Shown here in pieces: positions 12,505-51,600 of a stretch of 64,000 nucleotides of DNA. Every line of letters begins with the position of its first letter. Position 1 is the first letter of the stretch. Source of the DNA: Siniperca chuatsi (taxonomy: Eukaryota; Chordata; Actinopteri; Centrarchiformes; Sinipercidae); NCBI RefSeq assembly GCF_020085105.1, contig NC_058045.1:6772333-6836332 (forward strand), in the 5' to 3' direction. The position numbers and the translations under genes were made by a program. The notes below the pieces were generated by a model. The model did no database searches, was not told where the DNA came from, and saw only the letters and a program-made list of their open reading frames with translations.

Positions 12505-12735
12505 TTAAATTTGATTTATATAGCGCCAATTCATAACAGAAGTTATCTCATTGCTTTTCCTATAGAGCAGGTCTAGAACATACTCTTTATAATGTTATTT
12601 ACAGAGACCCAACAAATCCCACTATGAGCAAGCATTTGGCAACAGGGGCAACAAAAAACGTCCTTTTAACAGGCAGAAAACTTGGACAGAACCAGACTCA
12701 ATGGTGGGCGGCCATCCGCCGCCGCTGTGTTAGGT

Positions 12736-12787
<52 letters not shown>

Positions 12788-13256
12788 TTTTTTTGGGGGG
12801 TACAATGCAAATACCACCTAGAATTTTTAAAATAGTAATAATGTAATTGTAGTGGTAACATTAATACATTAGCTATAGGAATAATAATGACAGTATTAGT
12901 AACAGAGCCAATAACAACAACTGTAGTAGCAGTTGTCGAGCAGGAACACGGGGGACAGCAAGTGGCCCACAACCACAGATCCAGACTCTGCAGCTCCGGA
13001 GGCAGAAATACCTGCTGAAAGCGACAGAAGGAGAGAGGAGATAAATGAGAAACCACAGAACCACGGGAGAGAGAAGATGTCGAGTTAGTAACATGCAGTA
13101 ATGAGATAAAAATGCATTCAGATGGAGAAGGGGAGGGGGAGAGGAAAGAGGTGCATCATGGGAAGTCTCCCGGCAGTCTATGCCTATAGCAGCATAACTA
13201 AGGTTCAGGACTCACCTGAGCCAACCCTAACTATAAGATTTATCAAAGAGGAATGT
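12505..13256 (-). mobile_element. LINE (L2-clade) 3' untranslated region and tail
   Basis: Immediately 3' of the reverse-transcriptase remnant on the minus strand, this stretch runs to a conserved tail which on the plus strand reads TTTGATTTATATAGCGCCAA then TTCATAACAGAAGTTATCTC. That is a very common fish LINE 3' end as I remember it. An AGACCCAACAAATCCC block and a GGCGGCCATC block also fit. A (GA)n tract interrupts it at 12739-12786. The element is truncated at its 5' side near 13845. Confidence 0.75.
12739..12786. repeat. (GA)n microsatellite
   Basis: About 24 GA dinucleotides inside the LINE-derived 3' region. Peptides translated through it are Ser-Leu or Arg-Glu runs and are not genes. 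Confidence 0.95.
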
Positions 13257-44420: not shown

Positions 44421-44828
44421 AAAGCCTTTGTTTTTGCTGTTATGGACATTTTACCATTTTGGTGCAACAATAACTTTTAGTGCACAATTTTTAGGAAAAT
44501 CATTAGGCTAAAGGCATATCACCACAAGTGATGACAACCAGAACGACAAGAAACTGCTGTACCAGTATCTGGCAATGCAATCACAGACTCCATCCTCAGT
44601 GACAGCGGTAACAGAAGAAAACTGTTTGCTTTTCAAGGCTGTTCATCAGTTATGGCCAGTGATGACGAGGAAAATGTAAAGTTCAACTGATTTAGTTGTG
44701 ATGTTGTTTCTTCATTTTGACTTTAGTAGATGTACGTGTATGTACTTGCTGGTAACTGAAATTGTCAGTTGAATAATTGATTATTACTTGTGTCTGTCTA
44801 CCTCTAGTTCTACTTCTTCTTCTCACAA
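44421..44828. other. Intergenic DNA, no gene seen
   Basis: It contains a tiny ATG frame at 44653-44691 (MASDDEENVKFN) but no exon structure that I can support. Confidence 0.45.
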
Positions 44829-44901
44829 TGTTTCAAGTTGTCATGGCAGAGTATTTGGTTAAGTTTTCAACCTGCAACAATAATCACACCACAGGCAAAC
44901 C
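44829..44901 (+). repeat. Old, CpG-depleted copy of the 142-bp module
   Basis: TGTTTCAAGTTGTCATGGCA through TTAAGTTTTCAACCTGCAAC to GGCAAACC aligns with the central part of the modules at 48167, 49369 and 50192, with about 70 to 75 percent identity by eye and a 3-nt insertion. All five CpG sites that the modules carry in this interval are TpG or CpA here, the expected result of methyl-CpG decay. The head (GTCTCCTTAGAGACC) and the tail (TGCCACTGCGCAA) of the module are absent. It shows that the module is a multi-copy family of some age. Confidence 0.75.
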
Positions 44902-48166: not shown

Positions 48167-48308
48167 ATCAGTCTCCTTAGAGACCGTCAAAAATTGCCAT
48201 TGCCGACTATATTTCAAGTCGTCAAGGCGGGGTATTGGGTCAAGTTTTCAACTAGCAATAATCGCGCCTCGGATAAACCTCATTGGCTACGATACTGCCA
48301 CTGCGCAA
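48167..48308 (+). repeat. 142-bp CpG-rich module, copy A
   Basis: Runs from ATCAGTCTCCTTAGAGACCG to GCCACTGCGCAA. It differs from copies B and C at only two positions (C at 48241 instead of A; T at 48284 instead of A). It contains nine CpGs, high for this AT-rich window, and two potential hairpins: GTCTC-CTTA-GAGAC at the head and CGACT-ATATTTCA-AGTCG about 17 nt later. The homology with copy B continues in gapped form to CTCTGTTAGGGTTTT near 48375. A frame through it (FQVVKAGYWVKFSTSN...) is open, but there is no sign of a complete protein. The family is unknown to me. Confidence 0.9.
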
Positions 48309-48589
48309 GGCTAACGAGCACATTGACTCGGCGAGGGGGTGGCTCCAAGCCGCACACCTCTCTGTTAGGGTTTTAAAAATGGGTGTGGTTTATAATATAT
48401 GGTTATAATTACATAGAAATATAAACCATTTTATCCCCAAAGTGGAGCCATGGGGACTTTATAAATACATCTCCATAAATATGAACAGTACACGTGGAGA
48501 AGACAGAAGAGATATTAGAAAACAGCAAAAGTGTCCTTAAATGTGATACTGCCGTTATTATATGTAACATCTTTTGATTTAACTTTGTG

Positions 48590-48800
48590 GTCGAATCGTG
48601 TAGTAGCTTGTAATCAATACGAATAAGTAATGCACAAACAATCCAACGTCAAAACTCACCTACAACGTTAAATAAATACACAATTGAAAGAAGTTATAAA
48701 CGGAAATGACGTACCCTCCTGTACGTCTTTGTTTAAGGCTCCCGAAAACTCAGCCAGACGAGGAAGACGAACACGTTCTGACCATGCAATGTTTAATTTT
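48590..48800 (-). other. CpG-containing block with a possible minus-strand splice donor
   Basis: Read on the minus strand, a run with ACACGTGTTC-like, GACGTAC and ATGACGT-type (48703-48713 region) words leads to GTTGTAG|GTGAGTTTTG (donor at about 48655-48664), a full GTGAGT consensus. Nearby plus-strand words are CGGAAATGACGTACC and GCCAGACGAGGAAGACGAAC. This could be a first exon of a minus-strand transcript, or part of the array's repeat unit. There is no coding frame. Confidence 0.25.
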
Positions 48801-48849
48801 AACCAAATATGAGTCGCATTTTTATATTTCACTTATTCACATATTAACA

Positions 48850-49030
48850 CTTTTAACACGACTGAAATGCCCAAAATAATATACACGTTTAAATACAAAT
48901 ATTTAATAAGTATATAAAAGTGTATGAGTGAGAATTTATAGAGAAGTGAAGACAAAGAATAAGAGTCTGCAGCAGTGTCTAAACATGCAGAGACAGAATT
49001 GTTGAGACATACTGTAGCAATATCAGCCTT
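48850..49030 (+). repeat. Inter-module segment X, copy 1
   Basis: The block ACACGTTTAAATACAAATAT then TTAATAAGTATATAAAAGTG (48883-48924) recurs nearly unchanged at 50006-50047. Weaker similarity continues through AGAGTCTG and AACATACTGT-like words. The preceding CGACTGAAATGCCCAAAAT (48859-48877) recurs as CGACTGAAACGTCCGAAAT at 49197-49215. Together these mark a repeated unit larger than the 142-bp module. Confidence 0.8.
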
Positions 49031-49106
49031 ACGAAGACTTTACATTACTGTAAAACACCCCCTGGTGGAATAATATAAACATTACATTTGAACATTTTAT
49101 ACATTT

Positions 49107-49136
49107 ATCTTAAGAGACCGTCAAAAATTGCCATTG
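49107..49136 (+). repeat. Truncated module copy D
   Basis: ATCTTAAGAGACCGTCAAAA then ATTGCCATTG matches the head of the 142-bp module and then switches to unrelated sequence (GGTAACAGTGG). It sits about 225 bp after segment X copy 1, the position at which copy C follows segment X copy 2. Confidence 0.75.
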
Positions 49137-49368
49137 GGTAACAGTGGGGGAAACATGTACAACAGACCATACCGAAACTAAACATCACTCTTTACACGAC
49201 TGAAACGTCCGAAATAGGACAACTGAAGTACCACAATACCAAGAGTTGACACTAAACTTCATTTTTAAAATCATTCATCCTAGAACACACTATTTAACAT
49301 TTTGTGATAACATATCAAATTTACTCCTCCTCTCCAATAAAGCAAGATATTTTAGCTTAGAACAAGAT

Positions 49369-49510
49369 ATCAGTCTCCTTAGAGACCGTCAAAAATTGCC
49401 ATTGCCGACTATATTTCAAGTCGTCAAGGCGGGGTATTGGGTAAAGTTTTCAACTAGCAATAATCGCGCCTCGGATAAACCTCATAGGCTACGATACTGC
49501 CACTGCGCAA
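49369..49510 (+). repeat. 142-bp CpG-rich module, copy B
   Basis: Identical over all 142 bases to copy C (50192-50333), although the sequence on both sides differs. Downstream, a gapped similarity to copy A persists to CCTCTGTTAGGGTTTTAA (to about 49579). The frame crossing it from 49246 to 49569 is open for 107 codons, but matches no domain that I recognise and is not shared outside the module. Confidence 0.92.
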
Positions 49511-49578
49511 AGATGAAGAGAAGGAGTCACAGAGGGGGTGTCTTTAAGGTCTGCTCACCCCTCTGTTAGGGTTTTAAC

Positions 49579-49998
49579 ATGCATACTGTAGAATGACACA
49601 GGAAACCAGTTATGTACGGATGGTACTTAAATTGTGATTGTTTGGTTAAGAAAAGTCAGTTCAGTTGTACTTATATATTCGGGGTTAACCTGTTACTGTC
49701 ATGCTATTGTTTATGTGGGTTAAGAAATGTTATTTATTCCAGCTGCTAATTACGGATGTGACTTGTATGTTAAGTTGGGTAGGTGGGGCTAATCATTTCC
49801 GTGTTTGGGCTATAGACTGTGTGGTTTGGGATACAGAAAATTATGTATTTATCAGACGAGCTCTACCGAAGTCGCCAGAGAATCACCTCTTCATTTTGGC
49901 GTGCCAAGTTGGTTTTTTTGCCCATTGTTGCCTGAGTATGTATCATAAAACCGTTCAAAAATACAGATCACCTCATAGACTTCCTGTATGAAACGCTA
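49579..49998. other. Array interior between copy B and segment X copy 2
   Basis: No gene is supported. A 96-codon frame at 49701-49991 has no recognisable domain and no counterpart between copy A and segment X copy 1, arguing against a conserved protein. Confidence 0.45.
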
Positions 49999-50095
49999 TA
50001 ATTACACACGTTTAAATACAAATACTTAATAAGTATATAAAAGTGTAAGAATGAGAGTCTGTAGTGTGTAAACATACTGTTCTAGTATCAACGTC
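49999..50095 (+). repeat. Inter-module segment X, copy 2
   Basis: Matches 48877 onward: ACACGTTTAAATACAAATAC then TTAATAAGTATATAAAAGTG (50006-50047), then GAATGAGAGTCTG and TAAACATACTGT with deletions relative to copy 1. Confidence 0.8.
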
Positions 50096-50191
50096 ATTAT
50101 TTAAGTAACTCCTAAAGAAAAGTATATTTTAATTATTTTCTTAATTTGCGTGTTCAGAATGAAATTTAAAACTAATTGTTTTTAACACTTT

Positions 50192-50333
50192 ATCAGTCTC
50201 CTTAGAGACCGTCAAAAATTGCCATTGCCGACTATATTTCAAGTCGTCAAGGCGGGGTATTGGGTAAAGTTTTCAACTAGCAATAATCGCGCCTCGGATA
50301 AACCTCATAGGCTACGATACTGCCACTGCGCAA
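50192..50333 (+). repeat. 142-bp CpG-rich module, copy C
   Basis: Identical to copy B. It is preceded by a T-rich stretch (GTTTTTAACACTTTATCAG) and followed, after GCGCAAAGCTGA, by sequence unrelated to what follows copies A and B. The sharp ends at ATCAG and GCGCAA[A/G]G define the module boundaries. Confidence 0.92.
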
Positions 50334-51600
50334 AGCTGATTCAATCTAGGTATGAACAGAGTCGTCATTCCACTACATACGTTGTTTAGTTATGGTATCT
50401 TAGCTTTAATTCAAGACAAGCATACCATCTTCTGAGGACATTCACGGCCACACACTGTACCAACCCGCTAATTGTTGTAGTTTGCCGATTGCTGATTGTT
50501 GAAATGTATTTCTAACTGTCACCATGACGCAATGCATCATGGGATATATTTTCCCGTACTCTGATTATAATGGAAGTTCCGCCCAACCGTACAGTTTATC
50601 TTAATTTAAAGGCACACCACCCTTTCATGTTTGATACAGATCGGGGTATACAAATTAACAACACACTACAGTTTGTATTTCAGATATTTAAGCATTCGGA
50701 CTGAAAACGGCAGTCTACGGTGGCCCCTTTGACCGAAATTCTAATCGCGAATTCCTGTTAGGGAGGGCTGGCATTCAGGCACACACTCGGGTAAAAAGTG
50801 TTGCAACAGAAGACAGTGACTGCCCTGTAGATATACGTTAAATATAGAATACATTTATACGGCACAGCATTTCAAAGGACCTGGAAAATGAATTCCTGCT
50901 GATCATGGGTCCAACCCGTCCATCGACAACGCTATATTACTGAAACACCACCAGATGTCAGTATAGACAAGGATAAACCTGCTCTATTTTCCCTGTAAGG
51001 ATCTGACGATTTTAAAAGTAACCAAATGTGTTAATACTAACCTACTTCCAGATACAATAAAATAAAATACAGTGTTATACAACCTTAACACGGTGTGTTT
51101 ATGAAGTAACTTACCAACAGTAACGTTACCAAATAATTTATTTAGCACGTTCAGCAGAATGCTTTACTTAAACCGTTGGGATAATTAACGTTAACTGACA
51201 CGATTAATCACCGTCCAGATACGTTTAAAATTATCATAAGAGATAATGATACAGCAAAAATGAGGCCTTATATTAATGTAGTGTAGTAGGCACTAATGAT
51301 AAACCGTGCCATGCTAGCTGCTGAGACGACGAGATTGAACTTTTCTCACGTGCTCGCTGCTGCGGCCTCCTTGAAAAGTAAAACTTTTAGGAGGAAAACC
51401 TTGAGAACGGTTCGAAGTGTTATGTCCAAAGCACATAGAAATGAATCCATACAGGGCGGTTAGGGTGATCACTGACGAGTAACTTCCACCTGGTCAGTAC
51501 CTGTTAAAAAGATGCTGTGAGGTGATGCTGGCCTGAAATTGTGTTCTAACAGGAATGAAAAATGGCCGGACCGGAAATTGATTAAACGACTCTTCTTTTC
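50334..51600. other. Non-coding DNA with above-average CpG
   Basis: No gene is recognised. Words suggestive of promoter binding sites occur, such as CGCAATGCATCATGGGATAT (50528-50547), GGAAGTTCCGCCC (50571-50583) and ATGGCCGGACCGGAAAT (51562-51578, ETS-like). However, no coherent exon, splice signal or coding frame was found, and CpG density is well below that of the island at 59.6 kb. Confidence 0.35.

Follow-up and report, generated by a model that had tools for sequence, protein, structure and literature searches.

The window, by which we mean the whole 64-kb stretch analysed here (C4:6772333-6836332, in a genome of 719 Mb and 65 contigs), was described in an initial annotation as containing three near-identical, CpG-rich modules of unknown nature, at 48167-48308 (copy A), 49369-49510 (copy B) and 50192-50333 (copy C). 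All three are present at these positions, and sequence comparison found B and C to be identical over 142 bases, with A differing at two, corresponding to U4 positions 29 and 72. The observed to expected CpG ratios are 1.14, 1.24 and 1.21 in A, B and C respectively, against 0.35 in the window, and GC content is 0.45-0.48, against 0.39. Their nature can in fact be specified: each module belongs to a full-length U4 spliceosomal snRNA gene on the minus strand, matching the whole of Rfam model RF00015 (positions 1-138) with an E value of about 1e-29 in all three cases. The match is visible on this strand only, and the three copies are the only matches above any Rfam family's cut-off within the 64-kb window. 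The genes are 145 nt long when the full terminal stem-loop is included, and hence exceed the module by a few bases at the 5' end, a feature that had been missed along with the strand.

Three U4 genes and their surroundings

Copy A occupies 48168-48312 on the minus strand (RF00015 match at 48172-48312, 130.4 bits against a cut-off of 46 bits) and has A at position 29, G at 72 and C at 4. Copy B lies at 49370-49514 (minus strand; match at 49374-49514, 131.7 bits), with T at positions 29, 72 and 2, and copy C at 50193-50337 (minus strand; match at 50197-50337, 130.4 bits), with T at 29 and 72; outside the 142 bases, the deviating positions are 4 in A and 2 in B. U4 base-pairs with U6 and delivers it to the spliceosome, after which U4 is removed. 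A, B and C all have the K-turn 5' stem-loop, the T-loop region, stem I and, at nucleotide 118, the Sm site AATTTTTG, and their stem I and II regions are complementary to U6. Saturation editing of human RNU4-2 showed depleted variants at K-turn nucleotides 27-33 and also within 62-70 and 75-78, in the results given in PMC13253345; position 29, which varies between the copies, falls inside the first of these intervals, and position 72 between the other two. Judged by sequence and structure, the modules are three minus-strand U4 snRNA genes, presumably transcribed as such, and the finding as originally posed is an ordinary one, these being members of a known family.

The module is short, repeated and sharply bounded, and it had been suggested to be a transposon end, a satellite, or the promoter or 5' part of a multicopy non-coding gene. 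The last suggestion was right in so far as each module makes up almost all of the body of such a gene, but not as regards a promoter. Comparison of the module, as DNA, with the whole of its own genome (719 Mb) returned the same three places and no other, a count that is a lower bound, and U4 is matched at full length each time; hence the probability that the module is a transposon end, a satellite or a promoter element is negligible.

A PSE would be expected near -55, and the PSE-like core ACCNTAA is found on the minus strand at -59 in copy A (48365-48371), -58 in copy B (49566-49572) and -59 in copy C (50390-50396), with a second occurrence at -36 in B. These amount to two independent cases rather than three, since A and B share an upstream flank that C does not. 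No clear distal element, either SPH or octamer, was found in A or B; in C alone there is an SPH (ZNF143)-like site at 50528-50546 (minus strand, -209), which agrees at 17 of 19 positions with what we take to be the consensus, a score reached by three of 500 base-shuffled sequences. Candidate 3' boxes agree at 8-9 of 11 informative positions in all three copies, the same as in shuffled sequences.

The flanking DNA is, as previously noted, far more diverged than the modules, duplicated segments included. A and B have around 64 bp of upstream sequence in common, and are 89% identical over 219 aligned positions including the gene; outside the gene, copy C shares hardly any in-register sequence with either of them. 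At 48880-48941 there is a 62-bp flank segment 89% identical to 50003-50064, which lies in the 3' flank of copy C. Two dead U4 fragments are also found on the minus strand: one at 49109-49136, corresponding to U4 positions 111-137 (28 aligned positions, 96%), whose 3' flank resembles that of copy C, and an older one at 44825-44881, corresponding to positions 51-107 (81% over 57, blastn E 1.7e-7). The combination of near-identical modules and diverged flanks is what would be produced by a small family whose members arise and die and whose gene body is constrained: selection would hold the gene bodies whilst the flanks drift and dead fragments remain. Among the causes of near-identity put forward in the initial annotation, constraint on the gene body, along with local duplication, fits best, and B and C may also have undergone recent gene conversion.

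Paxillin, presumably a neighbour of the human RNU4 locus and the only neighbour checked, is found on C5 and C2, not on C4, and synteny with that locus was accordingly rejected. A protein scan covering 55 of the 108 stop-to-stop open reading frames of at least 75 aa in the window, 20 of which were rescanned singly, gave three weak matches (E 0.0023-0.0076). One, at 12733-13155 on the minus strand, is to the Pfam family p53-inducible protein 11 (E 0.0029); it falls below its cut-off and may represent one exon.

A second U4 type in an array

Searching the whole genome with the U4 model scored 42 places, a lower bound, comprising the three in the window and 39 on C15. When C15:1-130000 was read in 13 pieces, 76 Rfam U4 matches were found, one of them cut at a piece boundary and all in the first 87 kb. 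As far as about 39.4 kb the copies are on the plus strand; the array flips near 39.4-40.7 kb, and the later copies are on the minus strand. Their commonest spacing is around 1015 bp. The contig begins inside a U4 copy, so the array may be longer. Thirty-seven copies are identical over 141 nt, and 51 exact array-type 5' ends were found, all on C15. Scores run from 108.4 down to 59.9 bits, indicating that some copies are degenerate.

Over 141 positions, and with no indels, the array type shows 26 differences from A, 25 from B and 26 from C (about 18%). When these changes were set against the secondary structure, using the Rfam structure for the 5' stem-loop and folds of window and array copies for other pairs, five stem pairs proved to be changed on both sides and still to pair (23-49, 27-46, 34-42, 89-112 and 92-109); two more are changed on one side with pairing kept, and the outer pairs 20-52 and 127-144 are lost. 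Random relocation of 26 changes within the first 141 nt gave a mean of 0.64 such double changes, with five or more at a frequency of 5e-5. For broken pairs alone the same simulation, with a mean of 4.9 against the 2 observed, fell short of significance (P 0.064); it spanned only 141 nt, whilst one of the observed broken pairs reaches position 144. The simulation was repeated over 145 nt with 28 changes and with CpG transitions weighted 5, 10 and 20 fold, which gave P 0.013-0.021 for broken pairs. With the CpG weight at 20, five doubles arose at a frequency of 0.0025, falling to 3e-4 when no more than two broken pairs were required as well. CpG decay was rejected as the source of the five compensated pairs, as five doubles were still rare at all three weights.

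CpGs fall from nine in the window type to three in the array type, which has an observed to expected ratio of 0.51 and whose terminal stem is predicted to be less stable (-4.7 against -10.1 kcal/mol). The lost outer pairs, weak terminal stem and CpG depletion are as in partly decayed DNA; the depletion would suit DNA that is silent outside the oocyte stage, and equally suits decay.

Matched changes in U4 and U6

The 48 places scored for U6 in the genome also fall largely into two types. Two canonical genes, at C12:24451859 and C13:3994470, score 112.6 bits and are identical over the gene, and 36 copies forming an array on C10 score 89.2-100.4 bits; the remainder are one on C20 (86.5 bits) and nine weaker matches. 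The 300-bp upstream flanks of the canonical genes are nearly identical, which suggests recent duplication between chromosomes. The C20 sequence (C20:953704-953809) is a third form reading CCCTGTGCAAGG, and may be a gene or a pseudogene.

The array U6 has GGAATCGATACAGAG in place of the canonical GGAACGATACAGAG, and near the 3' end CGTTTCC (CGCTTCC in one copy) in place of CGTTCC. Hence both strands of one internal helix, the telestem, carry an extra base, and the helix is still predicted to form, with one mismatch, in all five copies fetched; the first of these bases sits between the part forming stem III and the ACAGAGA box. CpG is not depleted in the array U6 gene (1.2). Between ACAGAGA and GTGAAGCG near the 3' end, the commonest array form differs from the canonical sequence at a single base.

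That base is the very one that pairs with U4 position 7, in stem II, which is G in the window genes and U in the array; of 73 array U4 5' ends tallied, followed by GAGGCAATTTCA, none has the window form. A change of G7 to U in U4 would lead to A being expected in place of C in the partner U6, and the array U6 base is indeed complementary to the array U4. The array-type strings are GCGAAAGG for U6 and CTTTCGCAG for U4. A follows CTGCG in all five array U6 copies fetched, four having the exact string and the fifth one extra A. A 27-base U6 pattern carrying A has 32 exact matches genome-wide, all on C10, being absent from four of the 36 C10 copies, including that with the extra A; the same pattern with C has two, on C12 and C13. 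The matching changes in U4 and U6 are both transversions and not CpG changes.

The effect on pairing was estimated from predicted cofolds using U4 nucleotides 1-64. With canonical U6, window copies A, B and C gave -41.6, -43.6 and -41.2 kcal/mol, and the array U4 gave -40.3 kcal/mol with the array U6; the crossed combinations gave -34.9, -36.9 and -34.7 kcal/mol for A, B and C with the array U6, and -35.8 kcal/mol for the array U4 with canonical U6. Same-set pairs are thus predicted to be better by 4.5-6.7 kcal/mol, a difference arising from one base pair, and since the gap rests on a single mismatch, cross-pairing between the sets may still occur. The double change, U4 G7 to U and U6 C67 to A, would keep stem II paired within each set at the cost of one pair between sets. 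The pairing surfaces of the array U4 and U6 therefore appear, from sequence and modelling, to have changed together.

The greater number of array U4 copies, and the lack of a clear distal element in A and B, would be expected were the window genes pseudogenes and the C15 type the only working U4. This we regard as very improbable: the window copies score 130-132 bits where the array reaches at most 108, keep every motif checked as well as their CpGs, have the PSE-like core, and fit the canonical U6 of C12 and C13. A less improbable alternative, though still an unlikely one, reverses the roles, with the array U4 and U6 being non-functional, homogenised satellites and their matching change a coincidence. 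Arrays can be homogenised without function, and both the reduction of CpGs from 9 to 3 and the degenerate U4 copies of down to 59.9 bits would accord with this; against it stand the five compensated U4 pairs, at a frequency of 0.0025 or less even at a CpG weight of 20, the complementarity of the lone array U6 difference to U4 position 7 through two transversions, and the undepleted CpG of the array U6 gene. Taken together, the matching stem II changes, the same-set energies and the five compensated U4 stem pairs point to two co-evolved U4/U6 pairs, probably of the somatic and maternal kind described in zebrafish. It is well known that U4 and U6 can show compensatory changes from one species to another, as described in PMC4237228. 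Matched sets of paralogues within one genome were not found among the titles and abstract openings searched, which is not a claim that they are absent from print.

A division into two types, one in arrays, holds for U4, U6, U2 and U5; among the snRNA copies compared, U4 and U6 are those with a changed shared pairing core. In comparisons of one array copy with two dispersed copies, U2 is identical over its first 66 nt and different thereafter, U5 keeps its loop and differs after it, and U1 is nearly the same in both types. The U2 and U5 array copies interleave in a repeat unit of around 1.03 kb on C29, and also occur on C41, C46, C27 and the start of C12, several of these contigs being short and unplaced. 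U1 forms an array of 30 matches at C22:19433783-19453099, with a spacing of about 660 bp; its best score, 169.4 bits, exceeds the maximum of 166.5 bits for dispersed U1 (C7, C16 and C21), hence array-borne copies are not always diverged. At C7:29.10-29.13 Mb, U1 and U2 genes are interspersed on the plus strand.

Proposed roles of the two sets and comparison with known systems

We have high confidence in the explanation as a whole: A, B and C are a local birth-and-death family of U4 genes, a matched second U4/U6 set lies in arrays, and the window genes would by analogy be the somatic-type set and the arrays the oocyte or maternal type. The window genes would supply canonical U4, pairing with the U6 of C12 and C13, whilst the arrays would supply the second set. 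Oocyte supply is the likeliest array role because the array-borne U1 and U6 of zebrafish are called maternal-specific, and it is from this parallel that we infer the assignment of the two sets.

Redundant snRNA loci are common, and both sets might be general-purpose, with copy number serving dosage and no split by stage or tissue. Redundancy by itself would leave distinct, matched sets unexplained, and the maternal-specific report for the zebrafish U1 and U6 arrays (in the account of PMC11075544) also argues for a split; we consider general-purpose sets doubtful. We lean slightly towards a more specific form of the somatic and maternal reading, of two parallel, partly orthogonal major-spliceosome pairs, one of window U4 with C12 and C13 U6 and the other of C15 U4 with C10 U6, divided by the stem II change from G-C to U-A. 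As the extra array U6 base lies just before ACAGAGA, it could shift the positioning of 5' splice sites in an array-type, perhaps egg-type, spliceosome. In the results given for human U4 in PMC13253345, single changes at stem II nucleotides 6-11 are depleted in saturation editing, and in the stem II core the editing scores track predicted pairing energy (rho -0.79). The interest lies in the pair of U4/U6 sets and not in the module, which is a well-known gene: a natural double change in stem II, alongside a retained canonical pair, offers a test of separate egg and body U4/U6 particles.

The minor spliceosome, with U4atac/U6atac, provides a precedent for one genome having an additional U4/U6 pair that matches itself. 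The pair described here resembles it in this respect, but differs in that both array RNAs belong by their matches to the major families U4 and U6; U4atac would have won the best-of-clan comparison had it been the better fit. Maternal and somatic snRNA sets in zebrafish are reportedly the subject of a 2020 preprint by Pagano, Dekker and colleagues. As the account in PMC11075544 has it, two U4 genes in Region-1 of zebrafish chromosome 4 are called somatic, and the array U1 and U6 of Region-2 maternal-specific. The present genome is similar in having few U4 genes of the somatic type and array-borne second snRNA types, but in that account chromosome 4 houses maternal U1 and U6 together, whilst here U4 is on C15, U6 on C10 and U1 on C22, with U2 and U5 arrays on C29, C41, C46, C27 and C12. 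Among the material summarised in PMC4291461 is the way snRNA isoforms switch during development in fly, frog, chicken and mouse, with U4 itself switching in Xenopus and chicken; such animals likewise have more than one snRNA isoform per genome. In the comparison given there, the U4 of human, mouse, rat and chicken shows three nucleotides of difference, whereas the two types here differ at 25-26 of 141 positions, one of these differences being matched in U6. The window genes themselves are most like human RNU4-1 and RNU4-2, which belong to the same RNA family and similarly form a small contiguous cluster of near-identical genes, being contiguous, 141 bp each and four nucleotides apart in the description of PMC11030480, although the cluster here consists of three genes rather than a pair.
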